Shown: one piece after another, positions 3,700 to 56,400 of the stretch | Layout: each line of letters begins with the position of its first letter | Position numbering within the stretch: position 1 is the stretch's first letter | DNA from: Chiridota heheva | Taxonomy: Eukaryota; Echinodermata; Holothuroidea; Apodida; Chiridotidae | Reading direction: 5' to 3' | NCBI GenBank assembly: GCA_020152595.1 | Contig: JAIGNY010001633.1 | Location: 453,501 to 517,500 of the forward strand | Length of the DNA: 64,000 bases | The notes under the pieces: generated by a model | Told to the model about the DNA's origin: nothing | Database searches by the model: none | What the model saw: the letters and a program-made list of their open reading frames with translations, nothing else | Program-made: the position numbers and the translations under genes

Positions 3700-3811
3700 C
3701 TAGGTTGTTGTCCTTCTTCCCCTGCTTGCTTTCCCTCCAAATCATGCGTGAAATATCCACTTGGTGTAGTTTCCGATATCCATTCCCATCACTGAGGTCA
3801 TATACTCGCAC
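3700..3811 (-). CDS. WDR27: WDR27-like coding exon 7, last in window
   Basis: 37 codons plus one base, residues 217-253. Acceptor TTTTATCAAG, donor CTAG|GTAAAT. It reads VRVYDLSDGNGYRKLHQVD and then a basic, Lys-rich stretch (SKQGKKDNN). This matches the end of the fifth blade and the start of the long linker in human WDR27. The next exon lies left of the window, beyond the 32-bp array. Confidence 0.83.
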
Positions 3812-6800
3812 CTTGATAAAAATCAATCATGCAATGTAAGTGCTTTCTTTTTCAATTTAAATGCTAATCATTAGTCTGAACTGTATCACAGCTCACTGCA
3901 CATGTAAAACATGCTTTGCTTGAGATGAATGCATATCTGACTATATATGTTTCATAATGATGATGAGAAATGTTTTCTTAGCATCAATTCTAATATGATG
4001 CATATAAGGACAAAATATTATGGCACTGTACAAGGTAGAACAAATAGAAGGCATTTGAGATGCATACACTTTTTGAAATATTAATTTTGAAACGGCGACG
4101 ACGAGTGAACACACAATTACAATGACAGGGTCATCGCCTGCGTATTCGTTTATGATAGTAACAATGCTATCACGAAACGCCTAATACTACCCGGACGAGA
4201 ACACAGGTACGACGTACGGACAGACATAACATCAACAACCAAGTCAATGTCCACAGCCTTTGATAACCACTTGTGGTGCACTGGAGTGTCTACCCAACCC
4301 AGGCTTGAACCAGGGCCTCGTGGTCTGTAGACAGGTATGATAACCGCTACACCACAGTACGTAGATAATTTTGAAACTCTAAGTTGATAACTAATATTTG
4401 CAGCTACTTTACATTCTCCATTTTTAGCTGAAAGAACAGGTTTAAGCTGAAGACCCTATTTGCAGCTACTTTACATTCTCCGTTCTTAGCTGAATGAATA
4501 GGTTTACCTGAAGACCCTACTAAGTGATGTCATCTACTTAGATCAGCTTCAGCAAACATATCAGATCAATAGGTTATACAACATATGTACAATGATCAAA
4601 TTTCTTACGATACGAAATGAACCAGTGATTTGATTTTTCTACACATATGTGTATCCAACACCTGCTAGGAGACCAGAATGATTTCCTTAAGCCAAACAAT
4701 ATTGATGACCTTAATTGAACAGGATCATAATAATTGGGAAGAAATTTGTGGTTGCCTGCCTGTAGCTGAATAATGATGATGAAGACGATACATTCAGCAA
4801 TATCAATATTTTAAAGCTTTAATGATAATGAAAGATTGGCAACACTCAATATCAATAAAGCAGGATCATCTGGACACTTCATTCGACAAATGACATCCAA
4901 ATTAATTCCACTCCCCTGCTCTTTTATCCTACTGATGATATTACCTCAAGCATGATGATCAAATTTCTTTTGAGTATTTGCCATGTCATGACCAGTGCAT
5001 TAAATCCTGGAAAACCCTTTGAATGAATGGTTTATCTCTTTTTGACAATAGGTGAATTTGCAAACTTGTGGAAAAATCATAAGCTTTTGTGTTTTTTATT
5101 TTCTGTCAATCGTTTTTCATTGATGTTTTTATACGATTTAATGCACTGTTCAAAGGATTTTGTACTCGTGAATGGCCTTCGTAAAGTCATGTCACTCCCC
5201 TCAGGCAAAAAGTCCTTTGCCAAGTGCATTATGTGTATACAAACACTTTGTCTCAAGTACCCATAAAAGCACTAAATGACGTAATGTTAACTAAGTTGTC
5301 AGAGTGAATATTAGGGAATAAGAAATGAAGAAATGGCAAAAGTTCTCAGATATGTTACGAAGCAAAGAAAATGTGTTACTGTAATTGTAACACTAGCATT
5401 GGCAAAAATGCAGATTTTAACTAAATAATTGAGGGAAGGAAGATAATATTTTGCCAATACAACCTTATACAATGAAACCTTATACAATCACAGCTCACCA
5501 AACTTGTTTTTGTTTATATCATGCATGATGTGAACAGCATAAAGAAAAAAGTTGTATTATTTTTCATAATTTGTCAGGCAGTTATCAAACTATGTAGTAT
5601 TCAAAACATAATTTGTTTTCTTTAGAAAATAAAATTATGCAATAAAAATAAATAGTGCATCTATGTTTTGATCAATTTGAATATTAAGAACATATCTTAT
5701 TAAACTATGAAACTGAAAAGGTATTTCTAAATACATGTTTAACACATGTTTAACACATGTTTAACACATGTTTAATGTTTAACACATGTTTAACACATGT
5801 TTAACATGTTTTAGATAATGAACGATACTAGCAGATATTAACAATATTGACATGTGGTAAATGAATGAAAGTATGTGATAGAAGGGTAGGCCTAGCTAGG
5901 TAGGTGCCAGAGACATATACACATTACATATAGCTCCATCTGTCAATCTTAATCACAACAATGCAGCAAATGTTCCTTAACTGTACCTGACCATCTGCTG
6001 AACCAAGAGCAAAACAATCCTGAACGGGATCCACAGCCAGACTCAAGAATGGATAAGCTAATACAAGAAAATAGAATGAAGCGCATATAGATATCACAAC
6101 TTGTGCAAGAGGATGCTAAATGAGCTACAGTACAACACTGACTGCACAAGCAAAAATATACCCTATATTTATAAACTATATAGTGATCTTAATATTGTAA
6201 TATATTCATTTTGTTTTTATCACAATTACTTCTTCACTTGAACTACAAGTTTTAATTAAGACAAAGCATTCATTCATTTTTTGTTGTTGTTTAAGGGGGG
6301 GGGGTGAGGGGCAAAGACAGGACCTACCTATTCACTAATAACTAATCTGTTTGTTAGCACTGAGAATGTACACCATTTATTAGTTCTAATCACACAGAAG
6401 TATAAAAATACTTCATTTTGCATTATAAAGGTATAGATATTCAAATTCAACACATTCATTTATTTCCCTGAATCCTGAAAAAACATCTGAAATTTTCCAA
6501 CCCAATAACAAATATGCAATTTTCAATTGTTATCCACTAATTAAGGTGGGTATATGGAGCAAACATTATATTAAAAATTACTTTAAGCTCTATAAAAACT
6601 CATGAATCTAGCAGAAGCATTGATCAAAATCGGTTAAAAAATGATCATTTTTATACTGCATTTTGAATTTTCAGGAATCAAGGTACAAATTTTAAAACTA
6701 ATTTATGATATATTACAGGTCTGATCTGATTCTGCCATAATTCCAAAATGGGTGCTCAGTGTAAAATTAAAAACTATTCTCCTTTAATCAGTACCAAAAT

Positions 6801-9800
6801 GGACAAGTGTTCATTGCCCAATATTAATTAGCATCACATCACCACTTTTAATTTCATATAGCTATATTTTCAACTGTTCTGTTCACTTATCACTTGTGGT
6901 TCATTGAAATTTAAAAGTAATACAAGATAGGTGAACAGAGCAGAGAGAACAGACTCACTCAACACATTATTAGTATTAAAAAGCCAACATTTATCAATGA
7001 ATATTAATAATAATAATAATAATGAACACTTGTTATGCGCCAGTATCCATCAAAAGTGATGCTCATTGCGCAGCGACACAACAATTAATGCAAAACAATG
7101 TGAACAAAAAAGAAATAATAGTTAAGAATGCTGCAAAATACATACATACAAGAACAAATATAAGCTTAAAGTGAACAGAATCAGAACACATGAGGATATC
7201 TCTAATGAAGACTTAAAAGAATTGAGGGAAGGACTAAGTTTGTTGTTGTCTGGAAGTCTGTTCCATAAAAAGGGGGCAGCAGAAGAAAATGAACGTTTAC
7301 CCCATGTTCTAGAAGTACGTGGAATAGCTAATTGAAGTTTAAATTTAGAACGCATGAACTGGCGTAGAGATTTATATGGGATTAAAAGATCAGAAATATG
7401 TGTGGGAGACCATGCATGAGTAGACTCATACACAAAAACAAGTATTTTGAAAACAATTCTATGATGAATGGGTAGCCAGTGTAAATTTCTTAAAATGGGA
7501 GTAATGTGTTCAGTTGGTTTACTTAGGTAACAATCCTAGCAGCAATATTTTGTAAGCAGGAGAGACATTTGATTTGATTGGCTGGGAGACCATATAAAAA
7601 AGAGTTTCCAATATCAAGGCGGGAAGAGACAAAAGCATGAACTAGTTGTTCAGTGACAGGCATTGTTAAATATTTTCTTAATAGTCCTATGCTACGTAAA
7701 TGAAATGATGAAGATTTAGAAATTTCAGAGATATGGTCAGCCATTGACATATCAGCATCAAAAATGGAGTCACTGACATTTGGAACCAAGAACAATAAAT
7801 TCAGTTTTATCACCATTTAACTTTAAAAAGTTGGAGGACATCCACTTGCGTATTTCAACGATACATGATTCAAGTTTATGTAGTGCAATATTTGCTTCAG
7901 CTTGATTGGGATTAAATGAAATATATAATTGTGTGTCATCGGCACACAAGTTGGTGATGAAGATCATATTTACATATAATTTTACCAATAGAACTAGTAT
8001 AAATGGAAAACAAAATCAGACAAGAGTACACTCCCCTGCGGCACACCATATACAAGCTTAGATGGTGAAGAAGTTTTATCATTAATTTGTTCACATTGTG
8101 ATCTGTTAGTTAGATAGGACTTGAACCATTGTAATATAGTTCCATTAAAACCAATATTTTGAAGATGATTGATTAACAGGCAATGATCCACAGTGTCGAA
8201 GGCAGCAGATAAATCAAGAAGGACAAGGGCAACAAGTCTACCTTTATCCATTGTTGCAAGAATGTCATTTTGGACTTTGGGTAATGCAGTCTCGATACTG
8301 TGATTTGGTCGATAAGCCAATTAATGATTATCAAGAAGATTGTTTTGCTAAAGAAAAGGTGAAATTCTTCAAGGAGTTTTGACAGAAATGGAATATTAGA
8401 CACAGGTCATTAGTTTTTTAAAACATCCGGATTCAAACTTGATTTCTTTAATAAAGGACGAACAAGCGCTGACTTTAAAGATTCCGGAAAAATTCCTCAA
8501 GTGAGTGACTAATCGATAATATGAGCTATTATTGGCACAAGTGAGGCAGCGCAGTCTTTTACCAGTTTGGTTGGTATTGGATCAAGATTACAGCTTTTGT
8601 TTGGGTATTGTTTATCAAATTCTCAAGTTCAACAAATGCGGTTGGTTCAAAGGAAGTAAGTTTTGAGTCACAATTGTCAAGATATGCAACAGATGGCATA
8701 ATACATACATGAGATTCAAATTCATCACGAATTACTTTGATTTCATCACTGAAAATAGTACAGAATTTGTTTGCAAGATTACCATCCAAGTCACATTGTA
8801 AAATTGTTGAAGAATGTTTCCGGTGAAGAAGTTTATCTGTTACACTGAAAACTTGTTTTTGATCTGAACCACAGTCAGTAATAAGAGTAGAAAAATGGGT
8901 CAGTTAAGATTTGCGAATAAGTCCATTTACGAGGTTGCGTGAATACGGCAAAGTTGATGATCAATCTCAAGTCTAGATTTACGCTACTTCCGTTCTAATT
9001 TGCGATGCAGGTATTTCGCCTCAGTAATTTCCTGGCTATACCATGGTACATGAGGTCTTACGCTTATTGTGCGGGTTTTGGGAGGAGCATGTAAATCCAG
9101 AAGAGAAGAAAGACTTGAATCATAATTATGAAGGTTTTGTGAAAGGGAAGCAGTTGAATAGTTACAAAATACTTTTGAGTTTCTGATGTCATCACTGAGG
9201 AAACCAACATTAATATCATTTAGATTTCTTGTAGTTATTGTTTTCTTTGGTGGTTGAGGTTTTTGAAGAGCAAGTGCACATGTTATAATCAAATGATCAG
9301 ACAGACCGTCTTCTACACAAATATTTGAACCAATAGGATCATCAGAAGAACGCGTTATAAGCAAGTCCAAAGTATGTCCCTGTTTATGAGTCAAGGATGT
9401 AATTTGTTGTTGAAGACTGAAAGATGACAATAATTCCAAAAATCGAATGGCAATAGGATCATTGGGGTTGTCAACGTGTATATTGAAATCACCAGTTATG
9501 ATGAGGTTATGAGGCACTAAAATGTATGAGTCAATAAGTTCACTAAATTCACATATAAATTGAGAAAATGGTAATCTCTTCTTTGGAGGTCTATACACCA
9601 AAATCAATGAAATAGATGTTGAAGGAGATGACAGTTCAACTTCAAGCAATTAAAATGTGGTAAACTCTCTTTTATTAGGGATTCTGACAGATAATCCAGA
9701 TTTATAAAGGAAGGCAACACCAAATCCTTTCCTGTTAAGCCGTGGAACATGATAAAAATTGTAACCATTTGGAGTAATATCCCCAATAACGACAGTCTTC

Positions 9801-12800
9801 AGAGCGTAACCATGTTTCACATATAACAACAGCATCAAATTTCTTATCAAAGCACAGTCAGTTGTTTTACTGCGGACTGATTGGGCATTAAGCATACAAA
9901 ACTTTACTTGATGACTAATTCCTAAATGTTTATGTTTCTTCTTTCCTGCTCTTCGTACCCTAGGCCTCCTTTTTAAATCAAGATCATTAATGGCTGATCA
10001 TGCTACAGAAGAAAGTTTGAATTTACGATTAATAAGTTCAAGAAGCTGAATTCTTGAATAACACAGATTTGAATGAGCATGAGTGTCAATATAGTTAACA
10101 ATGTGATTTTAAGGTCCAGGATTTAAATCAATATCACCGGTAAGAAGTAAACAGTGCTGAAAATATGTACAAAAGTTGTTATAATATTCAGCTTTTAGAG
10201 AAAAGGCATCACATTTTTGACAAATTAATAAACACGATTTCCATACAGGAATATGGTAGACATGTAAAGTTTGCTGTACAAGAAAACACAACAGAAACAC
10301 CAACAAAATTTGAAAACACTCCATAATCTGAAAGCACTTTAAGTATCTTTAAGTAGCAGCTTCTATTGTATCCAGATAAGTTCACTAGTGGCAACTCTAT
10401 TATAATGATACTTCAAATGACAATGGGCTTAAGATAACAAAAGAAACCAATGTCAAACAGCAAGCAGCAAGAAAGTTCCTATGCAAAGGATACTAGGATA
10501 GGTCTGTGCAATTTCATGAAAAAAGTTTCAGCAATATTTTACTAAAAAGTAGCAAATTTTGAAGAAAATTGTGAAATATTAATCAATTCAGTGGTGTCCT
10601 GGCATCTATTACTTTTAGATGGTGTAAGAAAAACAGCACAAAACTATTAAAATACAGCAAAAATAAGTGCAAATTGAGGAGAGATGATGTCTGTGTCAGC
10701 CCTCATGAAGGCATCACATCATACTATATCCAAACAAAATATTTATCTTGGATAAATTCTTAAAAATCTTTATAAAATTGGGTTAAAAAATATGATCGCA
10801 GTGAAACATTCCACAATAGAACAATTACATATACAAACTAGTTTGTTTGTTTGATGAGGGCTTAAAGGTACAAGACAGCAAGGGTCAAATTGTGCCTGAG
10901 AATTTAGATCATTCCAGAGGTAGGAAGAAAAGAAAATAGAAGGAGACTGAGAGGAACACAGGGACTAAAAGCCAGGAAGCTGGCATCAAGAGAGGAAGTA
11001 CATGGGTGCAAAAAAGGGGATAAACATAGAGAGAAGGGAATGGAAGAGGACTAAATATGGTTGTAGAGGGAAGCATGATGAAGGAAGGAGATAATATTTT
11101 ATCCAGAGGGTTTTTCTGGAAGAGCTTGGCTATTGAGTTGTAGGGGGCAAGGGAAGCACTGGGAATGTTGTACAAGGGGGCGAGCAAGGAGGATGTGGTG
11201 AACTGTGAGAGTGGAATGGCAATTGTTGCAGAGGGGTGGGGGCGAGCCAACAAGGAGGTGGAAGTGAGTGAGGTGGGTGTGACCTATTTTAAGAGGTGTA
11301 ATGTGGACGTTGTCGTCACGAGACAGATTGCGGATGGTGGATTTGATAGGAATGGTGGGCTGGATGGTGTGCAGTTTGTTATCAATTTGAGAGTCCCATG
11401 CAGTTTACCTGCGGTCACAAACAAGGGAAGCGATAAGGGGTTTGATGTCAGAAAGGCTTTTGGGAAAAGGGTTAGGGGAGGTTGAGGGCAAGCTTAGTGG
11501 CTGCATCAGATATGTCATTGCCGGATATGCCAACATGGCTGGGTATCCAGAAGAAAAAAATACTTTTCCTGCAGGGCGGGGGGTGGGGGAAGGAGTTTAT
11601 GGAGAAGGTAGGACGTGGGGTTATCCCATTTAAGATTGGGTAAAGAGTCAAGGACCAACTTGGAGTCTGAGAAGATGGCAAAGTGGCCGAGCAGGGAGAA
11701 CTTAATAAAGCTGAGGGTGAGAAGGATGGCCTTGGCCTCGGCTGAGAAAATGGATGAGTAGTTGGGAAGCCTGCTATTGAAGGTAATGTCTTGGATGAAG
11801 GCAGCAGCTGCTTGGAGCCATCAGTACAGATGGAAAGAGGTAGTTTGAGAGTTGGTCCTTTATTTGGTTGTGGAGGTTGATGAAGAGGTTAGGGTGGATT
11901 TTGTGATGTGTGAAAAGGCCCAGGTGGATAAGAGGGATGCAGTGGCCCAGTGAGGAAAAGTGGGCCAGGAGAAGGTGCCAAGAGTGGCAGGGTTGATGCC
12001 GAGATGGTGGAGGTTGGCTTTGATGCATAGGCTGAAGGAAGGGGATTGGGTTTTAGTCCTATTAAAGAGGGTGGAGAAATTGGGGCCCTTAATGAGGTTG
12101 TAAACAGGGTTCTGGATGTTGGTGAGTGCTCTAAAAGCATAAGAAAGGCTAAGTTTTCTACACCTTAGCAGGAAAGGTTCGTTGGCTTCAACATGAAGGC
12201 TGGTGATGGGGAGGCTGTAGGCACCCAGACAAAGCCTGGGGGCTTCATTTTGGATGGTGTTGATGTGGTTGAGGTAAGAGTTGTGAGCGGCACAGTAGAC
12301 AATATTGACGTAGTCGAGCTTGGCACAAATGGTGAGCCTAAAGATTTTGAGGAGAGCATAGGGGTTCGCACCCCAAGTGGTGTTGGAGAGGAGGCGGGGA
12401 ATGTTGAGGGAGCTTTTGCATTTCTGTTTCAGCTTGGTGATGTGTTGCTTATAGGAGAGCTTGGGGTCTAGGGTTAAACCCAGGAGCTAAATGTGGTCAA
12501 CTTTAGAGATACGATTGCCATTAAGCATGAGCTTCAGGCTGGGGTGGAGGTTGTTGACAGAAGTGCATGCAGACTGTCTTGTCTTTGGAGAATTTAAAAC
12601 CGTTATTGTTGCACCAATCTTGCAGCCGGTTGAGGCTGAGTTGGAGCTTATCTTCGACAAAAGAAAAGTTAGGGAAGGAGTAGAAGATGGTGAAGTCGTC
12701 CACGTAGAGGGCACGTTTGATGTTGGGGCCAAGGTTGTACATGATGTTGTTAATGCTCAGGTTAAAGAGAGTGGGGGAGAGGATGCTGCCTTGGAGGACG

Positions 12801-33800: not shown

Positions 33801-36800
33801 ATTAGACACTACATAAGGGGACACCACTGCTAAATACATGTATGCCTGCAAAGGATGATTAGACACTACATAAGGGGACACCACTGTTGAATACATGTAT
33901 GCCTGCAGAGGATAATTAGACACTACATAAGGAGATACCACTGCTAAATACATGTATGCCTGCAAAGGATAATTAGACACTACATAAGGAGACACCACTG
34001 CTAAATACATGTATGCCTGCAAAGGATAATTAGACACTACATAAGGGGACACCACTGCTAAATACATGTATGCCTGCAAAGGATAATTAGACACTACGTA
34101 AGGGGACACCACTGCTAAATACATGTATGCCTGCAAAGGATAATTAGACACTACATAAGGAGATACCACTGCTAAATACATGTATGCCTGCAAAGGATAA
34201 TTAGACACTACATAAGGAGATACCACTGCTAAATACATGTATGCCTGCAAAGGATAATTAGACACTGCATAAGGAGACACCATTGCTAAATACATGTATG
34301 CCTGCAAAGGATGATTAGACACTACATAAGGAGACACCACTGCTAAATACATAAATGCCTGCAAAAGATAATTAGACACTACGTAAGGGGACACCACTGC
34401 TAAATACATGTATGCCTGCAAAGGATAATTAGACACTACATAAGGAGATACCACTGCTAATTACATGTATGCCTGCAAAGAATGATTATACACTACATAA
34501 GGAGACACCACTGCTAAATACATGTATGCCTGCAAAGGATGATTAGACACTACATAAGGAGACACCACTGCTAAATACATAAATGCCTGCAAAGGATGAT
34601 TAGACACTACATAAGGAGACACCACTGCTAAATACATAAATGCCTGCAAAGGATAATTAGACACTACATAAGGGGACACCACTGCTAAATACATAAATGC
34701 CTGCAAAGGATAATTAGACACTACATAAGGAGACACCACTGCTAAATACATGTATGCCTGCAAAGGATAATTAGACACTACATAAGGAGACACCACTGCT
34801 AAATACATGTATGCCTGCAAAGGATGATTAGACACTACATAAGGTGACACCACTGCTAAATACATGTATGCCTGCAAAGGATGATTAGACACTACATAAG
34901 GGGACACCACTGTTGAATACATATGCCTGCAGAGGATAATTAGACACATAAGGAGATACCACTGCTAAAACATGTATGCCTGCAAAGGATAATTAGACAC
35001 TACATAAGGAGACACCACTGCTAAAACATGTATGCCTGCAAAGGATAATTAGACACTACATAAGGGGACACCACTGCTAAATACATGTATGCCTGCAAAG
35101 GATAATTAGACACTACATAAGGAGACACCACTGCTAAATACATGTATGCCTGCAAAGGATAATTAGACACTACATAAGGAGACACCACTGCTAAATACAT
35201 AAATGCCTGCAAAGGATAATTAGACACTACATAAGGAGATACCACTGCTAAATACATGTATGCCTGCAAAGGATAATAAGACACTACATAAGGAGACACC
35301 ACTGCTAAAAACATGTATGCCTGTAAAGGATAATTAGACACTACATAAGGAGATACCACTGCTAAATACATGTATGCCTGCAAAGGATAATTAGACACTA
35401 CATAAGGAGATACCACTGCTAAATACATGTATGCCTGCAAAGGATAATTAGACACTACATAAGGAGACACCACTGCTAAAAACATGTATGCCTGCAAAGG
35501 ATAATTAGACACTACATAAGGAGACACCACTGCTAAATACATAAATGCCTGCAAAGGATGATTAGACACTACATAAGGGGACACCACTGCTAAATACATG
35601 TATGCCTGCAAAGGATAATTAGACAGTACATAAGGAGACACCACTGCTAAAAACATGTATGCCTGCAAAGGATAATTAGACACTACATAAGGAGATACCA
35701 CTGCTAAATACATGTATGCCTGCAAAGGATAATTAGGCACTTAAGGAGATACACTGCTAGAAACCTGTATGCCCGCAAAGGATAATTAGACACTACATAA
35801 GGAGATACCACTGCTAAATACATGTATGCCTGCAAAGGATAATTAGACACTACATAAGGAGATACCACTGCTAAATACATGTATGCCTGCAAAGGATAAT
35901 TAGACACTACATAAGGAGACATCACTGCTAAATACATAAATGCCTGCAAAGGATAATTAGACACTACATAAGGAGATACCACTGCTAAATACATGTATGC
36001 CTGCAAAGGATAATTAGACACTACATAAGGAGACACCACTGCCATAAATGCCTGCAAAGGAAAATTAGACACTACATAAGGAGATACCACTGCTAAAACA
36101 TAAATGCCTGCAAAGGATAATTAGACACTACATAAGGAGATACCACTGCTAAATACATAAATGCCTGCAAAGGATGATTAGACACTACATAAGGAGACAC
36201 CACTGCTAAAAACATGTATGCCTGCAAAGGATAATTAGACACTACATAAGGAGACACCACTGCTAAATACATGTATGCCTGCAAAGGATGATTAGACACT
36301 ACATAAGGAGACACCACTGCTAAATACATGTATGCCTGCAAAGGATAATTAGACACTACATAAGGAGACACCACTGCTAAATACATAAATGCCTGCAAAG
36401 GATAATTAGACACTACATAAGGAGACACCACTGCTAAAAACATGTATGCCTGCAAAGGATAATTAGACACTACATAAGGAGACACCACTGCTAAATACAT
36501 GTATGCCTGCAAAGGATAATTAGACACTACATAAGGGGACACCACTAAATACATGTATGCCTGCAAAGGATAATTAGACACTGCATAAGGAGACACCATG
36601 CCTGCAAAGGATGATTAGACAAATAAGGAGACACCACTGCTAAATACATAAATGCCTGCAAAAGATAATTAGACACTACGTAAGGGGACACCACTGCTAA
36701 ATACATGTATGCCTGCAAAGGATAATTAGACACTACATAAGGAGATACCACTGCTAATTACATGTATGCCTGCAAAGAATGATTAGACACTACATAAGGA

Positions 36801-39800
36801 GACACCACTGCTAAATACATGTATGCCTGCAAAGGATGATTAGACACTACATAAGGAGACACCACTGCTAAATACATAAATGCCTGCAAAGGATGATTAG
36901 ACACTACATAAGGAGACACCACTGCTAAATACATAAATGCCTGCAAAGGATAATTAGACACTACATAAGGGGACACCACTGCTAAATACATAAATGCCTG
37001 CAAAGGATAATTAGACACTACATAAAGAGACACCACTGCTAAATACATGTATGCCTGCAAAGGATAATTAGACACTACATAAGGAGATACCACTGCTAGG
37101 AACCTGTACGCCCGCAAAGGATAATTAGGCACTACATAAGGAGATACCACTGCTAAATACATAAATGCCTGCAAAGGATGATTAGACACTACATAAGGAG
37201 ACACCACTGCTAAATACATGTATGCCTGCAAAGGATAATTAGACACTACATAAGGAGACACCACTGCTGAAAACATGTATGCCTGCAAAGGATAATTAGA
37301 CACTACATAAGGAGACACCACTGCTAAATACATGTATGCCTGCAAAGGATAATTAGACACTACATAAGGGGACACCACTGCTAAATACATGTATGCCTGC
37401 AAAGGATAATTAGACACTGCATAAGGAGACACCATTGCTAAATACATGTATGCCTGCAAAGGATGATTAGACACTACATAAGGAGACACCACTGCTAAAT
37501 ACATAAATGCCTGCAAAAGATAATTAGACACTACGTAAGGGGACACCACTGCTAAATACATGTATGCCTGCAAAGGATAATTAGACACTACATAAGGAGA
37601 TACCACTGCTAATTACATGTATGCCTGCAAAGAATGATTAGACACTACATAAGGAGACACCACTGCTAAATACATGTATGCCTGCAAAGGATGATTAGAC
37701 ACTACATAAGGAGACACCACTGCTAAATACATAAATGCCTGCAAAGGATGATTAGACACTACATAAGGAGACACCACTGCTAAATACATGTAAATGCCTG
37801 CAAAGGATAATTAGACACTACATAAGGGGACACCACTGCTAAATACATAAATGCCTGCAAAGGATAATTAGACACTACATAAAGGAGACACCACTGCTAA
37901 ATACATGTATGCCTGCAAAGAATAATTAGACACTACATAAGGGGACACCACTGCTAAATACATGTATGCCTGCAAAGAATAATTAGACACTACATAAGGG
38001 GACACCACTGCTAAATACATGTATGCCTGCAAAGGATGATTAGACACTACATAAGGGGACACCACTGTTGAATACATGTATGCCTGCAGAGGATAATTAG
38101 ACACTACATAAGGAGATACCACTGCTAAATACATGTATGCCTGCAAAGGATAATTAGACACTACATAAGGAGACACCACTGCTAAATACATGTATGCCTG
38201 CAAAGGATAATTAGACACTACATAAGGGGACACCACTGCTAAATACATGTATGCCTGCAAAGGATAATTAGACACTACATAAGGAGACACCACTGCTAAA
38301 TACATGTATGCCTGCAAAGGATAATTAGACACTACATAAGGAGACACCACTGCTAAATACATAAATGCCTGCAAAGGATAATTAGACACTACATAAGGAG
38401 ATACCACTGCTAAATACATGTATGCCTGCAAAGGATAATAAGACACTACATAAGGAGACACCACTGCTAAAAACATGTATGCCTGTAAAGGATAATTAGA
38501 CACTACATAAGGAGATACCACTGCTAAATACATGTATGCCTGCAAAGGATAATTAGACACTACATAAGGAGATACCACTGCTAAATACATGTATGCCTGC
38601 AAAGGATAATTAGACACTACATAAGGAGACACCACTGCTAAAAACCTGTATGCCTGCAAAGGATAATTAGACACTACATAAGGAGACACCACTGCTAAAT
38701 ACATAAATGCCTGCAAAGGATGATTAGACACTACATAAGGGGACACCACTGCTAAATACATGTATGCCTGCAAAGGATAATTAGACAGTACATAAGGAGA
38801 CACCACTGCTAAAAACATGTATGCCTGCAAAGGATAATTAGACACTACATAAGGAGATACCACTGCTAAATACATGTATGCCTGCAAAGGATAATTAGGC
38901 ACTACATAAGGAGATACCACTGCTAGAAACCTGTATGCCCGCAAAGGATAATTAGACACTACATAAGGAGACACCACTGCTAAATACATGTATGCCTGCA
39001 AAGGATAATTAGACACTACATAAGGAGATACCACTGCTAAATACATGTATGCCTGCAAAGGATAATTAGACACTACATAAGGAGACATCACTGCTAAATA
39101 CATAAATGCCTGCAAAGGATAATTAGACACTACATAAGGAGATACCACTGCTAAATACATGTATGCCTGCAAAGGATAATTAGACACTACATAAGGAGAC
39201 ACCACTGCAAAATACATAAATGCCTGCAAAGGAAAATTAGACACTACATAAGGAGATACCACTGCTAAATACATAAATGCCTGCAAAGGATAATTAGACA
39301 CTACATAAGGAGATACCACTGCTAAATACATAAATGCCTGCAAAGGATGATTAGACACTACATAAGGAGACACCACTGCTAAAAACATGTATGCCTGCAA
39401 AGGATAATTAGACACTACATAAGGAGACACCACTGCTAAATACATGTATGCCTGCAAAGGATGATTAGACACTACATAAGGAGACACCACTGCTAAATAC
39501 ATGTATGCCTGCAAAGGATAATTAGACACTACATAAGGAGACACCACTGCTAAATACATAAATGCCTGCAAAGGATAATTAGACACTACATAAGGAGACA
39601 CCACTGCTAAAAACATGTATGCCTGCAAAGGATAATTAGACACTACATAAGGAGACACCACTGCTAAATACATGTATGCCTGCAAAGGATAATTAGACAC
39701 TACATAAGGGGACACCACTGCTAAATACATGTATGCCTGCAAAGGATAATTAGACACTGCATAAGGAGACACCACTGCTAAATACATGTATGCCTGCAAA

Positions 39801-42800
39801 GGATGATTAGACACTACATAAGGAGACACCACTGCTAAATACATAAATGCCTGCAAAAGATAATTAGACACTACATAAGGAGATACCACTGCTAAATACA
39901 TAAATGCCTGCAAAGGATAATTAGACACTACATAAGGGGACACCACTGCTAAATACATAAATGCCTGCAAAGGATAATTAGACACTACATAAAGAGACAC
40001 CACTGCTAAATACATGTATGCCTGCAAAGGATAATTAGACACTACATAAGGAGATACCACTGCTAGAAACCTGTATGCCCGCAAAGGATAATTAGGCACT
40101 ACATAAGGAGATACCACTGCTAAATACATAAATGCCTGCAAAGGATGATTAGACACTACATAAGGAGACACCACTGCTAAATACATGTATGCCTGCAAAG
40201 GATGATTAGACACTACATAAGGGGACACCACTGTTGAATACATGTATGCCTGCAGAGGATAATTAGACACTACATAAGGAGATACCACTGCTAAAAACAT
40301 GTATGCCTGCAAAGGATGATTAGACACTACATAAGGAGACACCACTGCTAAATACATGTATGCCTGCAAAGGATGATTAGACACTACATAAGGAGACACC
40401 ACTGCTAAAAACATGTATGCCTGCAAAGGATAATTAGACACTACATAAGGAGACACCACTGCTAAATACATGTATGCCTGCAAAGGATAATTAGACACTA
40501 CATAAGGAGACACCACTGCTAAATACATAAATGCCTGCAAAGGATAATTAGACACTACATAAGGAGATACCACTGCTAAATACATGTATGCCTGCAAAGG
40601 ATAATTAGACACTACATAAGGAGACACCACTGCTAAAAACATGTATGCCTGCAAAGGATAATTAGACACTACATAAGGAGATACCACTGCTAAATACATG
40701 TATGCCTGCAAAGGATAATTAGACACTACATAAGGAGATACCACTGCTAAATACATGTATGCCTGCAAAGGATAATTAGACACTACATAAGGAGACACCA
40801 CTGCTAAAAACATGTATGCCTGCAAAGGATAATTAGACACTACATAAGGAGATACCACTGCTAAATACATAAATGCCTGCAAAGGATGATTAGACACTAC
40901 ATAAAGGGGATACCACTGCTAAAAACATGTATGCCTGCAAAGGATAATTAGACACTACATAAGGAGATACCACTGCTAAATACATGTATGCCTGCAAAGG
41001 ATAATTAGACACTACATAAGGAGATACCACTGCTAAATACATGTATGCCTGCAAAGAATGATTAGACACTACATAAGGAGATACCACTGCTAAAAACATG
41101 TATGCCTGCAAAGGATAATTAGACACTACATAAGGAGATACCACTGCTAAATACATGTATGCCTGCAAAGAATGATTAGACACTACATAAGGAGATACCA
41201 CTGCTAAAAACATGTATGCCTGCAAAGGATGATTAGACACTACATAAGGAGATATTACTGCTAAATACATGTATGCCTGCAAAGGATAATTAGACACTAC
41301 ATAAGGAGACACCACTGCAAAATTCATGTATGCCTGCAAAGAATGATTAAACACTACATAAGGAGACACCACTGCTAGGGATAATTAGACACTACATAAG
41401 GAGACAATACATGTATGCCTGCAAAGGATAATTAGACACTACATAAGGAGACACCACTGCTAAATGCATAAATAAATGCCTGCAAAGGATAATTAGACAC
41501 TACATAAGGAGACACCACTGCTAAAAACATGTATGCCTGCAAAGGATGATTAGACACTACATAAGGAGACACCACTGATAAATACATAAATGCCTGCAAA
41601 GGATAATTAGACACTACATAAGGAGACACCACTACTAAACACCACTAAATAAATGCCTGCAAAGGGATAATTAGACACTACATAAGGAGACACCACTGCT
41701 AAAACATATGCCTGCAAGGATGATTAGACACTACATGACACCCTGCTAAATACAAAGGATAATTAACTTAGACACACTGCTAAATACATGTATGCAAAAG
41801 GAGACATGTATGCCTGCAAAGGATAATTAGACACTACATAAGGGAGACACCACTGCTAAAGGAGACACCAAAACATGTATGCCTGCAAAGGATAATTAGA
41901 CACTACATAAGGAGATACCACTGCAAAGGATAATTAAACTACATAAGGAGACACCATGCCTGCAAAGGATAATAATTAGACACTACTAAGGAGACACCAC
42001 ATGCCTGCAAAGGATAATTAGAGACACCACTGCTAAAACATGTATGCCTGCAAAGGATAATTAGACACTACATAAGGAGACACCACTGCTAAATACATGT
42101 ATGCCTGCAAAGGATAATTAGACACTACATAAGGAGACACCACTGCTAAATACATGTATGCCTGCAAAGGATAATTAGACACTACATAAGGAGACACCAC
42201 TGCTAAAATACATGTATGCCTGCAAAGGATAATTAGACACTACATAAGGAGACACCACTGCTAAATAGACACATGTATGCCTGCAAAGGATAATTAGACA
42301 CTACATAAGGAGATACCACTGCTAAATACATGTAAATGCCTGCAAAGGATGATTAGACACTACATACCACTGCTAAAAACATGTATGCCTGCATAAATGC
42401 CTGCAAAGGACACAAGGATAATTTAAGGAGACACCACTGCTAAATACATGTATGCCTGCAAAGGATAATTAGACACTACATAAGGAGACACCACTGCAAA
42501 ATTCATGTATGCCTGCAAAGAATGATTAAACACTACATAAGGAGATACCACTGCTAAATACATGTATGCCTGCAAAGGATGATTAGACACTACATAAGGA
42601 GACACCACTGCTAAAAACATGTATGCCTGCAAAGGATAATTAGACACTACATAAGGAGACACCACTGCTAAATACATGTATGCCTGCAAAGGATGATTAG
42701 ACACTACATAAGGAGACACCACTGCTAAAAACATGTATGCCTGCAAAGGATGATTAGACACTACATAAGGAGACACCACTGCTAAATACATGTATGCCTG

Positions 42801-45292
42801 CAAAGGATAATTAGACACTACATAAGGAGACACCACTGCTAAATACATGTATGCCTGCAAAGGATGATTAGACACTACATAAGGAGACACCACTGCTAAA
42901 AACATGTATGCCTGCAAAGGATAATTAGACACTACATAAGGAGATACCACTGCTAAAAACATAAATGCCTGCAAAGGATAATTAGACACTACATAAAGAG
43001 ATACCACTGCTAAATACATGTATGCCTGCAAAGGATAATTAGACACTACATAAGGAGATATCACTGCTAAAAACATGTACTGTATGCCTGCAAAGGATAA
43101 TAAGACACTACATAAGGTGACACCACTGCTAAATACATGTATGCCTGCAAAGGATAATTAGACACTACATAAGGAGACACCACTGCTAAATACATAAATG
43201 CCTGCAAAGGATAATTAGACACTACATAAGGGGACACCACTGCTAAATACATGTATGCCTGCAAAGGATAATTAGACACTGCATAAGGAGACACCACTGC
43301 TAAATACATGAATGCCTGCAAAGGATGATTAGACACTACATAAGAAAGACACCACTGCTAAATACATAAATGCCTGCAAAAGATAATTAGACACTACGTA
43401 AGGGGACACCACTGCTAAATACATGTATGCCTGCAAAGGATAATTAGACACTACATAAGGAGATACCACTGCTAATTACATGTATGCCTGCAAAGAATGA
43501 TTAGACACTACATAAGGAGACACCACTGCTAAAAACATGTATGCCTGCAAAGGGTAATTAGGCACTACATAAGGAGATACCACTGCTAAATACATGTATG
43601 CCTGCAAGGATAATTAGACACTACATAAGGAGATACATGTACCACTGCTAAATACATTTGAAAGTTATTTTCTATGGAATAAAACATGTACCAAAATTTG
43701 ACCTGCTTAATTCACTAATTGAGTGAAAACTAACTGAAAGAATAAAGAATTGATTGTTCTTATATATGAAAAAATGCAAAAAAGGGAATTTACATCTAGT
43801 TGAGTAAAAACGAATCAGGTATTGAGATTATTTTTGGTACAATTTCTGCTTTCCAGAACATTAGTCCCTTTAAAGAGGGAAGGACATGGGTTTTCATGTG
43901 ACTCTCACTTAAATATTTGGACAATTTGTTACAGATTTATTCCAAAATTTGTGTTGCTTGTATTAGCAGAAATTGGAGAAAAAAGCAAATATAGTCTTCA
44001 ATCTAATCAGCTCATGTGTTTCTCGTACAAATTGGTCAACTTGTTATGACGTCACTCCCAGAACAAAATTTCTTGCGATACTTTTACATCACACAAACAA
44101 GATAGGCGTAGTGTTATTATGTGTGCTCCTTAAAATTTGACGTATATAAACTAGGAGTAGAAAGACTTTTCAGCAATACATTTCTTACCAAGCTGTTATT
44201 ATTTCCTTGAATATATATTCAAATAAGTAATATCTTCAAATTTCATAGAAACATATCATCGCTTTTCGAAATGCCGTAATGATCTGGCCTAAGTGTTATA
44301 AAGCCTATGTCTAATGTTAGGCCTAACTCTGAAACAAGTAAGTTAATGAAGTTGAACATGAAGGCATTAAATATTTGTTTTCATTTCACATTCATAGCCT
44401 ACAATAATATCATATATTGTAGTACATTATTGTCATAGAATTTAAATGTAGCAAAAAACATCACGATGTATAAGTTTTTACAAAAGAAATGATAGGTTGA
44501 AACCAAAGTAATGTCAGCAGCAGCCTAACATAGCTGAAACCAAATATTTTCAATTCTTGCATTGATTTGTTTGAAATTTTGAAGCATCGATTGCTTGGAA
44601 TTTTTAGTTTCAATTTTTTCATTCAAATGTTTTCTTTTGCATTGTTGGGGACTATTGCTTGTTTGGAATTTTTTATTATGGTTTCTTTTTTTTGATGGAA
44701 TATTAACGGACTACACCAAACTGTTATAAATGCATTTTTTATTTTTTTGTGTCATGCCCTCTTTAAATGAATTTATTAACATATGATTTGACACTCTATC
44801 ATCAAAGCATATGCCACATTTAATATCAAACAAAAGTTGTCAATTATTGTCTCTCCTTGTGAAATTGGTCTGGAGTTTCTATCCCTGGATCCCTGGTATT
44901 TATGTTCTCTGTGAATGAATGTTCTACTTTTGATTTTTTTTTTTAAAGGTATTAGGTTCTTTTTTTTTTAATAAAAGGATTTTTCTTTTTTATCAAAGTG
45001 AATATTTTTGACAATTTTTTTTAATTCTTTTTAAATTAAAAGGTATTTTCTGAAAAACATTTTTTTGATCAAATTCCTCATTTTATGTGTCAAACTTGGA
45101 ATTTCCTGACAATAATTATTCCATGTTCTACACGGCACTCCACCTTACCTTTGAAAGAAGGCTCTGCACACTCCATATACCCACAGACGTCTTTGATGAT
45201 GGTGCAGCAAGGTAGGTACAATTGGCATCAAATTGACTATGAGATGCTGGCCACTGTAACCCCAGAGACACCAAGTGTACCAGTGATTCCAT
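3700..45292 (-). CDS. WDR27: WDR27-like WD40-repeat protein, N-terminal part (split gene, 3' end outside window)
   Basis: Seven coding exons on the minus strand: 45149-45292, 31764-31905, 28378-28502, 24484-24597, 13651-13702, 5987-6057 and 3700-3811. Every intron is GT-AG and every phase joins without a stop. The 760 bp give 253 residues plus one base. The product is a run of WD40 blades (beta-propeller scaffold), with WD or WD-like endings GIWSV, IVWNV, LILDS, FKVWD and VRVYDL. Identity rests on exons 2-7. The pattern EFCP..AGT.IS.SEDR.FKVWD, then AYP.LSL, ADGQ and YR at the matching distances, follows human WDR27 as I recall it. WDR27 is a poorly characterised propeller protein, so I assign no pathway. 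Introns of 2.2-13.2 kb hold most of the window's repeats. The rest of the protein should be coded beyond position 1. Another WD40 paralogue is possible, but the exon-by-exon collinearity argues against it. Confidence 0.87.
4094..4365 (-). mobile_element. tRNA-derived SINE with target-site duplication
   Basis: Read on the minus strand, the element opens with a tRNA-like head. Its A box is like TGGTGTAGCGGTTATCA and its B box is GGTTCAAGCCT, spaced as in a tRNA. The anticodon arm does not fold properly, so it is not a functional tRNA. A roughly 200-bp body follows. The direct repeat TAATTTTGAAAC flanks it at 4082-4093 and 4366-4377, the mark of LINE-driven insertion. It lies in the intron between WDR27-like exons 6 and 7. 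Confidence 0.85.
4378..5730. other. intron sequence without recognised features
   Basis: AT-rich intron DNA. A duplicated stretch of about 55 bp sits near 4,400-4,510 (GCAGCTACTTTACATTCTCC occurs twice). I see no exon or element here. The 79-codon open frame at 5027-5266 resembles nothing I know. Confidence 0.6.
5731..5811. repeat. 11-bp tandem repeat
   Basis: About seven copies of AACACATGTTT, with one interrupted unit. It lies in the intron upstream of the exon 6 donor region. Confidence 0.92.
5987..6057 (-). CDS. WDR27: WDR27-like coding exon 6 (WD blade)
   Basis: 71 bp. Two bases complete a serine codon, then 23 codons read YPFLSLAVDPVQDCFALGS and ADGQ. Acceptor TTGTATTAG, donor CAG|GTACAG. 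It corresponds to the AYPLLSL...GCADGQ segment of human WDR27. Ends in phase 0. Confidence 0.84.
6998..10400 (-). mobile_element. CR1/L2-like LINE with 2A-like N-terminal peptide, decayed
   Basis: Non-LTR retrotransposon read right to left. At about 10,112-10,330 there is a hydrophobic leader ending in GDIDLNPGP. Next comes an apurinic endonuclease (9,895-8,984) with LNAQS, GDFNIHVD and SDH motifs. The reverse transcriptase follows (about 8,320-7,520) with LLDLSAAFDTVDH, GVPQGS and CADDTQLY (the YADD box with Tyr changed to Cys). The LINE C-terminal region is at 7,433-7,122 (SFSSAAPFLWNRLP). The 3' tail at 7,000-7,020 is a TTA microsatellite. Several frameshifts and stops, including one directly after the 2A-like motif, make it a pseudo-element. 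It sits in the intron between WDR27-like exons 5 and 6, in the same orientation as the gene. Confidence 0.9.
10401..10839. other. intron sequence between two LINEs, nothing recognised
   Basis: AT-rich sequence. I see no coding motif, terminal repeat or tandem repeat in it. Confidence 0.6.
10840..13150 (-). mobile_element. RNase H-bearing LINE (I/Jockey-like group), 5'-truncated and frameshifted
   Basis: Read on the minus strand from 13,140 down. The reverse transcriptase begins HQSGFRKHYNTLDQL, then FFDLEKAFDTSW, GVLQGSILSP at about 12,800, and YVDDFTIFY at about 12,690. An RNase H domain lies at about 11,760-11,470 (SAEAKAI, SDSKLVLDS and WIPSHVGISGND, giving the E, D and terminal H/D residues). 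A terminal cysteine-histidine knuckle, LCNNCHSTLTVHHILLACP, is near 11,230-11,170. Frame changes between these blocks show decay. The base composition is much richer in GC than the flanks. There is no endonuclease because the 5' part is missing. The 3' end near 10,840 has GTTTGTTTGTTT. Confidence 0.88.
13151..13650. other. intron sequence before exon 5, nothing recognised
   Basis: AT-rich DNA with several short ATT/TAAT runs. No element was identified. The exon 5 donor follows at 13650. Confidence 0.55.
13651..13702 (-). CDS. WDR27: WDR27-like coding exon 5 (52-bp microexon)
   Basis: Residues 176-192 plus one base. Acceptor TTTGTACAG, donor CAT|GTAAGT. The translation VWDIVKSSLLYQSGIIS closes the blade opened in exon 4, corresponding to VWDHCTGSLIYSS in human WDR27. 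The exon is very short and sits between a 10.8-kb and a 7.6-kb intron. Similarity-based gene callers would easily miss it. Confidence 0.83.
14078..14215 (+). mobile_element. LINE 3'-terminal coding fragment
   Basis: The plus-strand translation YSLHPKSIRKWIILPPSIHA followed by AFKSSLADI resembles the C-terminal tail common to CR1/L2/Rex-like reverse transcriptases (F.PR.I..WN.LP......FK..L). No upstream RT remains. Confidence 0.6.
14400..14619. repeat. ~300-bp interspersed/tandem repeat unit, left part split by a DNA transposon
   Basis: The sequence ends AAGCCCCACCTACTCATTAA and continues after the piggyBac-like insertion at 15,689. It shares the ATGCATATTAATGA / AAGCCCCGCC blocks with repeats at 15.7-16.67, 20.97-21.19 and 46.06-46.85 kb. 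Confidence 0.75.
14620..15688. mobile_element. piggyBac-like non-autonomous DNA transposon
   Basis: Terminal inverted repeats are CCCTTACTCTACCA at 14620-14633 and its complement TGGTAGAGTAAGGG at 15675-15688. Both are flanked by TTAA (14616-14619 and 15689-15692), the piggyBac target. Removing the element and one TTAA yields CTACTCATTAATATTCATGG, which matches intact copies of the surrounding repeat. The roughly 1.07-kb interior has no transposase frame, so it must be mobilised in trans. Confidence 0.85.
15190..15275 (+). other. tRNA-like relic inside the piggyBac-like element
   Basis: A B-box-like GGGTTCGAGTCTCGCC is preceded at tRNA-like distance by TGGTGCAGAGG. An acceptor stem and a proper anticodon loop are not convincing. 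It is possibly a SINE or tRNA fragment captured by the transposon. Confidence 0.35.
15689..16672. repeat. ~300-bp repeat, about three tandem units
   Basis: Units start at about 15,689, 15,985 and 16,281. Each contains TAAGCCCC(G)CC, then ATTAATATGCATGATATCACC, a block like CATCTGCAGACCATGAGCTA, and GTTTACAAGCTTTTT. Period is about 297 bp. The last unit is broken by the Tx1-like LINE. Confidence 0.85.
16673..20973 (+). mobile_element. Tx1/L1-like LINE, ORF2 only, decayed
   Basis: ORF2 begins near 17,039. An apurinic endonuclease covers 17,084-17,850 (SFNCKGLGDKNKR, VVGDWN, then LDFFLLS and the terminal DHSL). Reverse transcriptase covers about 18,590-19,330: KNWRPISLLN, IDFEKAFDSVSH, RGCRQGDLLSPYIF and QYADDTTFLFDG. 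A long C-terminal domain runs to 20,858, with a CSFCSSN knuckle near 20,490. AATAAA and an A-rich tail lie at 20,949-20,973. At least six frameshifts or stops break the frame, and no ORF1 is present. It is inserted in the ~300-bp GCCC-rich repeat, whose sequence resumes at CATATTAAGCCCCGCCCAC. Confidence 0.9.
20974..21190. repeat. continuation of the ~300-bp repeat with CATACA microsatellite
   Basis: AAGCCCCGCCCACTATGCAT resumes directly after the LINE tail. It leads into (CATA)n/(CACA)n at 21,062-21,135 and then GCCATCATGACCGCATAG. The same order occurs at 46.8 kb and 47.6 kb. Confidence 0.8.
21397..22250. repeat. 32-bp minisatellite with ATGCAT and GAGCTC palindromes
   Basis: About 27 copies of a unit built from AGCATGTATGCATCAAGAGC and TCACATCTAAGT. 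Common variants are CACGTATG, CAGGTATG and GCTCGCAACT. It lies in the intron between WDR27-like exons 4 and 5. Confidence 0.96.
22283..23452. repeat. 50-bp minisatellite, about 23 copies
   Basis: The unit contains AGCAACTGAGCAGCAAATAC, TTCATCTGCAATTCAACTAC and AAACAGTACC. Some units carry a CTGCAGC insertion after GTAC. It starts about 30 bp after the 32-bp array ends, yet the two units share no sequence. Confidence 0.97.
23453..24199. other. intron sequence with a short duplication
   Basis: A roughly 60-bp segment is duplicated at about 23,560-23,650 (GTGATTGTAATATCTTATCG twice). Otherwise no recognisable element is present. Confidence 0.6.
24200..24430 (+). mobile_element. LINE C-terminal fragment
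   Basis: A plus-strand frame near 24,315 reads LEALHWRSIQYRISFKILLL followed by TFRSIHA. This is the LHWLP..R..FKI motif that follows reverse transcriptase in CR1/L2-type LINEs. It lies just left of WDR27-like exon 4, in the opposite orientation to the gene. Confidence 0.65.
24484..24597 (-). CDS. WDR27: WDR27-like coding exon 4 (WD blade)
   Basis: Exactly 38 codons, residues 138-175. Acceptor TTCTATTCAG, donor AAG|GTAAGT. It reads LEGHTAKVTCAEFCPHIAG followed by STSEDRTFK. The GH dipeptide and the SEDR-F-K signature are the best-conserved stretch in the gene and the main reason for naming it WDR27. The WD that closes the blade is on the next exon. Confidence 0.88.
24775..25906. repeat. 44-bp minisatellite, left segment
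   Basis: The unit contains TGTACTACATCCCATCCAAC and CATGTCCCACATGCCACCCC. Because 44 is not a multiple of 3 and the consensus lacks stops, all three plus frames stay open for about 390 codons. These are artefacts. The first copies are degenerate. The array is in the intron between WDR27-like exons 3 and 4. Confidence 0.97.
25907..26356 (+). mobile_element. CR1/L2-like LINE 3' fragment inserted in the 44-bp array
   Basis: It codes for IKLHWLPVSQRILYKTCVIV, then SRAFSAAAPHVWNSLP and FKTRLKTFLF, a well-preserved LINE C-terminus open for 102 codons. It ends in a short ATGG microsatellite. The array sequence is interrupted after ATGC and resumes at ATGC, giving a possible 4-bp target duplication. 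The insertion therefore postdates at least part of the array. Confidence 0.88.
26357..27222. repeat. 44-bp minisatellite, right segment
   Basis: About 20 more copies of the same unit as on the left, more homogeneous than the left segment. The last copies change to CCATCCTACCATGCCCCACA before the array ends. Confidence 0.97.
27279..27346. repeat. 18-bp short tandem repeat
   Basis: Nearly four copies of a unit like CATTCACCTACCATGATC, in the flank of the 44-bp array. Confidence 0.8.
27350..28189. other. intron sequence, nothing recognised
   Basis: Unique-looking DNA with several GATC-rich stretches near 27,850-28,010. I see no exon or element. Confidence 0.55.
28190..28312. repeat. 41-bp repeat, three copies
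   Basis: Three exact-period copies start at 28190, 28231 and 28272, each containing GGTTCATTGTCGGGGCAT. They lie 66 bp from the donor of WDR27-like exon 3. Confidence 0.93.
28378..28502 (-). CDS. WDR27: WDR27-like coding exon 3 (WD blade)
   Basis: Residues 96-137. A long T-rich tract precedes the acceptor CAAATAG, and the donor is AGA|GTAAGTA. The translation includes GQQLGPVQYCCFNPDDTLLA and then IYNEVLILDS, a degenerate blade without the Trp-Asp ending. Human WDR27 is degenerate at the same place (IFMLD). Ends in phase 0. Confidence 0.85.
28578..29955. repeat. 18-bp minisatellite, about 76 copies
   Basis: The unit is GATAGATCGGGAGTTTCT, with GATGGAGAG and TTCCGAT variants. At about 28,910-29,040 several 16-17-bp units shift the reading register. 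Eighteen bases is six codons, so both strands show long open frames; I do not treat them as genes. It lies in the intron between WDR27-like exons 2 and 3. Confidence 0.98.
29956..31763. other. intron sequence before exon 2 donor, nothing firm
   Basis: AT-rich DNA. TATCGCGATA-like palindromes occur near 30,991, 31,040 and 31,057. The 91-codon plus-strand frame at 30588-30863 resembles no family I know and lies inside an intron, so I do not call it. Confidence 0.55.
31764..31905 (-). CDS. WDR27: WDR27-like coding exon 2 (WD blade)
   Basis: Residues 49-95 plus one base. The acceptor is TTTTATTTAG and the donor GCAG|GTCTGT. The translation starts PLELLAHKKQITSVRFG and ends SAEDYIIVWNVEKSRELFAA. 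It contains the GH-like (AH) start and the WD-like (WN) end of a blade. It matches human WDR27 around its second blade (LRGHHQPIT...IMWN). Phase 1 joins to exon 3 as a glycine codon. Confidence 0.85.
32235..43660. repeat. 57-bp satellite-like array, about 200 copies
   Basis: The unit contains ATACATGTATGCCTGCAAAG, GATAATTAGACACTACATAA and GGAGACACCACTGCTAA. Fifty-seven bases equal 19 codons. On the minus strand, the sense strand of WDR27, the unit reads MYLAVVSPYVVSNYPLQAY without a stop, so frames of up to 1,009 codons (37868-40897) result. Between about 41,380 and 42,420 units are fragmentary and irregular. Elsewhere they are regular. The array fills most of the 13.2-kb intron between WDR27-like exons 1 and 2. 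Confidence 0.98.
43661..45148. other. intron sequence between 57-bp array and exon 1, nothing recognised
   Basis: AT-rich DNA with poly-T runs at 44,930-45,060. No element or further exon seen. Exon 1 of the WDR27-like gene begins at 45149. Confidence 0.6.
45149..45292 (-). CDS. WDR27: WDR27-like coding exon 1 (start codon)
   Basis: It codes for residues 1-48. The start chosen is the ATG at 45292-45290 (M-E-S-L-V), because this frame meets a TAA upstream inside the same exon. The frame then reads HSQFDANCTYLAAPSS and GIWSVQSLLSK, matching the first blade of WDR27. The donor is AAAG|GTAAGG and the exon ends in phase 0. The start context is weak (C at -3, G at +4), so a start in an unseen upstream exon cannot be excluded. 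A different minus-strand frame over this exon is open for 97 codons but is only a shadow. Confidence 0.8.
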
Positions 45293-54999: not shown

Positions 55000-55560
55000 A
55001 GTTTATCATCAATACATACATACACCAGTTTTTACACATTCTGCAACTTCTGAACCTAAAATAAATATCTTGTCTGATTTTGATTTCAAATGTTTGACAT
55101 TTTTATTTGCAAAGCACATTTCCTTTGAATTCTTTAGGTTTAGCAGCAAGTTCTGTTCATGACATTTTGACAGTTTCATCAACAATTGACTGGTACTCCA
55201 CTTGATCCCCATTTACATAATTGTTAGCAATTCTACATGAACTAGCAGTATCATCCACATACTTTATCACACAAATATTTTTTGTTTGATCTAATTCCGT
55301 CGGTATAGATGGTGAAAAGTACAGCAGATAAAGGGCCTCCCTGTGGTACACCTACATTTATTTCAGATCATTTTGACACACCTTTGTCCAGTTGAAATTG
55401 TCTTGTCCACCCTTGAAGAAACTGTGCCAACCAATGAATGAGCCACGGGTCTTTTATAAATATTGTCAAAACTTTAAGTAGGTAGTTTGGCAAGACTGTA
55501 TTGAGAGCACTTGAAAAATCGATAAAAAGAACCTTTGACATGGTCGTTTCTTTACAAAAA
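55000..55560 (-). mobile_element. LINE reverse-transcriptase fragment (Rex1/CR1-like)
   Basis: The minus strand reads VLFIDFSSALNTVLP, a GVPQGGPLSAVLF block near 55,350, KYVDDTASSCRI near 55,250 and NLLLNLKNSKEM near 55,140. These are successive RT boxes with stops between them. The 3' domain is missing. Confidence 0.78.
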
Positions 55561-55589
55561 AAAAGTTTATTAGCAACGTTTTGCAGTGC

Positions 55590-56400
55590 TTTGAGCCTTT
55601 GACCAGCTTTATCGCAGTCTTGGAAAGATGTTTGGGCCATGACAGCTTGCTGTCTATTGTAACACAAAGATGTTTGGACCATGACAGCTTGCTGTCTATT
55701 GTAACACAAAAATGTTTTGACCATGATAGCTTGCTGTCTATTGTAACAGAAAGATGTTTTGACCATGATAGCTTGCTGTCTATTGTAACACAAAGATGTT
55801 TTGACCATGACAGCTTGCTGCCTATTGTAACACAAAGATGTTTTGACCAGGACAGCTTGCTGTCTATTGTAAAACAAATATGTTTTGACCATGACAGCTT
55901 GCTGTCTATTGTAACACCAATAATGTCAAGCTCTTTCTTGATGTCTAGCTTACGGTTTCTAAAGTACGTAGTAGGCTTGGCAGGTTCCCTCTTCATAGAA
56001 ATACAATGGCCTTACACATTACTTTGATGGTTTAAAGGTTATCATTCATTTGTCCTCCCATTCTTTTATTCTCTCAAGATCCATGTTCAAGCTGAAAGAT
56101 GCTAAGTCACCCCCACCTGGTAGAATTGGTGCAAAAAGAATGGAATCATCAGCATATCGCTATAACTCATTATCACACACTTCAACCAGATCCCCTATAA
56201 AATCTGAAAACAAAAGTGGGCCCAGCATAGAACCCTGTGGACTCTGTAACCAGGATAGCAGCTTGCCAGACACTCCTTTGGACTTCATCTTTGCACCCTG
56301 TCCATTATGCCAAACTTTATCAAAGGCTCCTTTTATGTCCAGCACAATAATACACACTTCATCTCCTTTATCCAGCAAGCATGGATACCCCTATATTGTA
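55590..56400 (-). mobile_element. LINE reverse-transcriptase fragment with internal 42-bp minisatellite
   Basis: The minus strand reads VLDIKGAFDKVWHNG, then SPQGSMLGPLLF, YADDSILFAPI near 56,150, and LDIIGVTIDSKLSWSKH near 55,920. Past the minisatellite it reads DKAGQRLKALQNVANK near 55,600. Box order and spacing fit a jockey/CR1-type RT. Frame breaks occur before and after the array. It abuts the different RT fragment at 55,560. Confidence 0.8.
55629..55922 (-). repeat. 42-bp in-frame minisatellite, seven copies, inside an RT
   Basis: The anchor AGCTTGCTGTCTATTG recurs at 55644, 55686, 55728, 55770, 55812, 55854 and 55896, an exact 42-bp period. On the minus strand each unit encodes the 14 residues VTIDSKLSWSKHLC. 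This is the conserved LGVTID..LSW..H segment of the host RT, and the amplification is in frame. Confidence 0.95.

Follow-up and report, generated by a model that had tools for sequence, protein, structure and literature searches.

The coding start of a very probable WDR27 orthologue, carried by short exons among repeat-filled introns, in Chiridota heheva

The minus strand of the 64,000-nucleotide stretch of Chiridota heheva DNA analysed here (hereafter the window; C1631:453501-517500, in a genome of 1.1 Gb) very probably carries the 5' part of an animal WDR27 orthologue that is apparently single-copy and intact, and whose product would be a WD40 beta-propeller scaffold. We infer the name from a provisional human WDR27 sequence, a reference that is not a database record and that serves as a lead only; on the sequence comparisons given below, the name is very likely right. 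The first part of the gene lies in the window, and the rest continues well beyond it on the same contig.

Exons and introns in the window

The original prediction, made from the raw sequence, had placed seven exons of 52-144 bp between positions 45292 and 3700. All of them were found there on the minus strand, exact to the base, and are given below in the order in which they would be transcribed, together with the introns that separate them.

Exon 1, 45149..45292, minus strand: 144 bp, opening with the ATG at 45292; donor GTAAGG, phase 0 out; position of the 5' end uncertain
Intron 1, 31906..45148, minus strand: 13,243 bp, of which a single array of 57-bp units makes up 86%
Exon 2, 31764..31905, minus strand: 142 bp, WD40 blade; donor GTCTGT, phase 1 out
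Intron 2, 28503..31763, minus strand: 3,261 bp; tandem repeat 43%, chiefly an 18-bp array
Exon 3, 28378..28502, minus strand: 125 bp; donor GTAAGT, phase 0 out
Intron 3, 24598..28377, minus strand: 3,780 bp; tandem repeat 57%, chiefly 44-bp arrays
Exon 4, 24484..24597, minus strand: 114 bp, WD40 blade; donor GTAAGT, phase 0 out
Intron 4, 13703..24483, minus strand: 10,781 bp; tandem repeat 21%, with LINE endonuclease/reverse transcriptase pieces on the plus strand
Exon 5, 13651..13702, minus strand: 52 bp, VWDIVKSSLLYQSGIIS; donor GTAAGT, phase 1 out
Intron 5, 6058..13650, minus strand: 7,593 bp, with LINE endonuclease/reverse transcriptase pieces on the minus strand
Exon 6, 5987..6057, minus strand: 71 bp, YPFLSLAVDPVQDCFALGSADGQ; donor GTACAG, phase 0 out
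Intron 6, 3812..5986, minus strand: 2,175 bp; tandem repeat 9%
Exon 7, 3700..3811, minus strand: 112 bp, includes VRVYDLSDGNGYRKLHQVDISR...; donor GTAAAT, phase 1 out

Joined in silico, the seven exons amount to 760 bp and give a stop-free product of 253 aa. The phases agree at all six junctions and all six introns are of the GT-AG type, so that the correct phases and the 760 coding bp announced for this gene both stand. Because exon 7 terminates at a donor in phase 1, the gene runs on past it; the span 3700-45292, which had been presented as the place of the gene, does contain the seven exons but corresponds to its first part only, and 3700 is not the gene end. The number behind the description of the gene as "extremely dilute" is right (760 of the 41,593 bases between 3700 and 45292, or 1.8%) but does not set this gene apart. 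Large introns full of repeats are common in big animal genomes, the human WDR27 gene is also large (of the order of 200 kb to a few hundred kb), and 1.8% coding sequence, though low, is not unusual among large animal genes.

Translation likely starts at the ATG at 45292, which has an in-frame stop 13 codons upstream. This start is likely rather than proven, since similarity to the provisional WDR27 reference begins at residue 17 of the product, the first 16 residues being unaligned, and since the spliced alignment (see below) recovered the donor of exon 1 but opened the exon at an acceptor at 45253 and not at the ATG. When the product was searched against its own genome by tblastn, exon 1 was recovered at 98% over query residues 1-49.

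Further exons outside the window

Downstream of the window and on the same strand, 11 further exons were found in WDR27 order (that of the provisional reference), leading to a stop codon. Exons A-C (C1631:435466-412596) form one open chain of 118 aa; exons D-K extend from C1631:404757 to the stop in the exon starting at 360743 and are open up to that stop, which comes after LFSDR. Phases agree within each of these two chains after the ends of exons B, D and J were shifted by hand from their alignment positions for this purpose; one of the three has a GC donor. The last intron (C1631:366868 to 360743) appears to be GC-AG, with the donor GCAAGT, the other donors of both chains being GT; once this GC-AG intron is allowed, no gap is left in the reading frame or in the WDR27 alignment. 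A tblastn search with the reference protein, in which nine of the 11 downstream exons were covered, gave significant matches for five (1e-10 to 7e-6) and weak ones for three (0.019-0.044), and left one unlisted. From the ATG at 45292 (contig position 498792) to the stop, the gene extends over ca. 138 kb, and the coding bases found in its 18 exons amount to 2,080 (sum of exon lengths).

The stretch matching residues ca. 278-405 was found neither by low-threshold tblastn, which returned chance-level matches only, nor by motif, which returned no match, and one tiny exon is probably missing before the D-K chain. As a consequence, there is no join between the two chains, or between either of them and exon 7. 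Several small exons offered by the spliced alignment were rejected as forced. These were the ones it put ahead of exon 1, those it put in the stretch of residues 278-405, and two exons of 10 bp, the last of which was unneeded with the GC-AG intron in place; three forced exons were judged by eye (one in a tandem repeat, one with a weak acceptor) and the rest from the alignment table. A separate observation relates to C1631:404757 (minus strand), where the acceptor of the downstream exon and the bases that follow it are duplicated in tandem, 35 bp apart, resulting in two acceptors.

When both halves of the protein were compared with the genome itself by tblastn, good matches occurred on the same contig only, the best ones elsewhere having E values of 0.0042 and 0.0037. 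With the best place off the contig reaching only E ca. 0.004, the gene looks single-copy. These data also bear on whether the locus might be a decayed, unexpressed WDR27-type pseudogene in which repeats would have gathered without opposing selection. Introns heavy with repeats would fit such a relic, as would a protein stretch (ca. 278-405) that was not found, yet decay is very unlikely in view of 18 exons that are stop-free, bounded by GT-AG (one by GC-AG; three ends hand-placed) and closed by a proper stop codon, and of an assembly that holds no second, better copy.

For the apparently intact orthologue that we favour, transcription of the minus strand would produce one precursor RNA of at least ca. 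138 kb, from which splicing would remove the satellite- and LINE-filled introns and join the many short exons. The product would be a WD40 propeller scaffold protein about as long as WDR27. The window would supply its coding start and 253 codons, and the eleven outside exons would carry the rest to the stop, save for residues ca. 278-405, a counterpart of which presumably exists, and for the probable tiny exon.

Family assignment and the exon join

Pfam comparisons agree with the WD40 protein that had been predicted: the general WD40 model (PF00400) matches the joined 253-aa product at 53.5 bits against a cut-off of 27 (2.5e-14), with two stretches passing singly, and it matches the 249 aa from the downstream exons at 79.9 bits (1.1e-22). 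The more precise description of the gene as WDR27-like has also held. With the provisional human WDR27, the window product aligns gap-free along 222 residues, of which 39% are identical (E = 2e-53), and to this are added the 11 downstream exons, in WDR27 order to the stop. The assignment is strong because of the order and the length of this agreement, which extends over DNA independent of the reference. At the positions of Arg467 and Thr542, two residues reported for human WDR27 in one publication (PMC9978490), the provisional reference instead carries M467 and A542; this reflects either an isoform difference or an error in the reference, and bears on the letters and the isoform of the reference and not on the gene of the window.

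WD40 repeats resemble one another, and the WDR27 reference is a provisional one, so that the gene might belong to some other WD40 family, with two propellers and an N-terminus like that of WDR27, and have been misnamed. Among the best 25 of the 36 Pfam families matched by the window product, 23 are below their cut-off; the other two are the general WD40 model and a single specific one, WDR75_2nd (34.7 bits against a loose cut-off of 27). With the downstream half, ANAPC4_WD40 is the only specific model that passes among the best 25 of 30 families (25.5 bits versus a cut-off of 22.9, likewise loose). In searches of the PDB, no entry called WDR27 occurred among the best 60 of 559 for the window product or among the best 60 of 285 for the downstream half. 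The two specific models that exceed their cut-offs speak for such a misnaming, which is nevertheless slightly less probable still than a pseudogene when set against the gap-free identity over 222 residues, an order kept across most of the 827-residue reference protein, and listed families that nearly all remain below threshold.

The exon join was examined by a spliced protein-to-DNA alignment of our own, with the provisional human protein (827 residues) as query and 176 kb of the contig as target, the predicted exons not being supplied. This alignment recovers all six window junctions at identical bases, and every internal boundary of the seven-exon reading is confirmed. Over the 176 kb, its score is 1134 versus 291-315 for seven controls (the other strand, the reversed protein and five shuffles). 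When restricted to window positions 3601-45500 and to the first 260 query residues, the score is 397 versus 88-130 for 22 controls, namely 95.7 on the opposite strand, 108.4 with the protein reversed and 88-130 with 20 shuffled versions of it.

Taken singly, two of the seven exons are significant by tblastn with the reference protein, exon 2 (1.4e-8) and exon 4 (9.9e-8), the others having E values of 0.17 (exon 3), 14 (exon 5), 0.95 (exon 6) and 11 (exon 7), with exon 1 unlisted. Since most exons are weak on their own, the evidence lies in the join. A scan of the window with a WD40 regular expression gave no match, the pattern being overly strict and some blades being split by introns. Even with exons that are short and mostly non-significant singly, in a region that is long, it is practically inconceivable that open stretches flanked by GT-AG in repeat-rich DNA came together like this by chance, given a real score at least three times that of every control and six identical junctions recovered by an alignment blind to them. 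A reading of raw sequence can thus locate seven exons, each of 52-144 bp, and join them in phase across 41.6 kb that is mostly repeats and other intron DNA.

Repeats in the introns and comparison with known genes

Tandem repeat represents ca. 43% of the six window introns (17,485 of 40,833 bases). Pfam was also run on eight further open frames in the window; five of them, in introns 4 and 5, match endonuclease or reverse transcriptase families, and the remaining three have no match. In three of the six introns, a satellite array is located close to the 3' splice site:

57-bp satellite array, 32238-43633: ends ca. 330 bp upstream of the exon 2 acceptor
18-bp satellite array, 28582-29953: ends ca. 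80 bp upstream of the exon 3 acceptor
44-bp satellite array, 24776-25904: ends ca. 180 bp upstream of the exon 4 acceptor

Within the first of these arrays, an open frame of 1009 aa (37868-40897, on the strand of the gene) corresponds to the 57-bp satellite read in frame, 57 being a multiple of 3. It is unlikely to be a gene because the whole array contains 148-331 stops in each of the six frames. A piece located at 25956-26264 is flanked on both sides by blocks of one 44-bp satellite and, judging by a motif, resembles the terminal portion of a LINE reverse transcriptase frame. At 55466-55996, a 42-bp tandem repeat occurs in seven copies, in frame (repeats of VTIDSKLSWSKHLC), inside a LINE-like frame that is presumably of LINE origin, a pattern that would fit a minisatellite arising by expansion of a coding motif of the transposon. 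As a further observation on the assembly, a search for COX1 gave no match, so that the assembly seems to lack the mitochondrial genome, unless it was overlooked.

According to one report (PMC13253961), introns of mouse Wdr27 and Wdr95 hold piRNA clusters, and mice with a 13.9-kb Wdr27 deletion are healthy, with fertile males. By analogy, the transposon- and satellite-bearing introns might be a source of piRNA in Chiridota heheva, the gene being kept large for a job of the introns themselves, a proposal to which we attach very little probability. We regard the gene as an ordinary one, conserved and apparently single-copy, with its first part in the window; it would add one more likely orthologue to a conserved and little-studied scaffold gene.

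The propellers of WDR3, THOC3, Prp19, WDR75, WDR5 and ANAPC4 have the general WD40 repeat in common with the Chiridota heheva product, whereas the specific Pfam models of other WD40 propeller families are listed below their curated cut-offs, with the exceptions of WDR75_2nd and ANAPC4_WD40 mentioned above. With respect to vertebrate WDR27, differences are found in the level of identity (ca. 39% over the 222 N-terminal residues), in residues ca. 278-405, whose counterpart is not located, and in the first 16 residues of the product, which do not align. When compared to the provisional human sequence, the likeness covers the order of the blades, conserved stretches including SADGQ, and a C-terminal half found downstream, and the gene is large, as it is in human.
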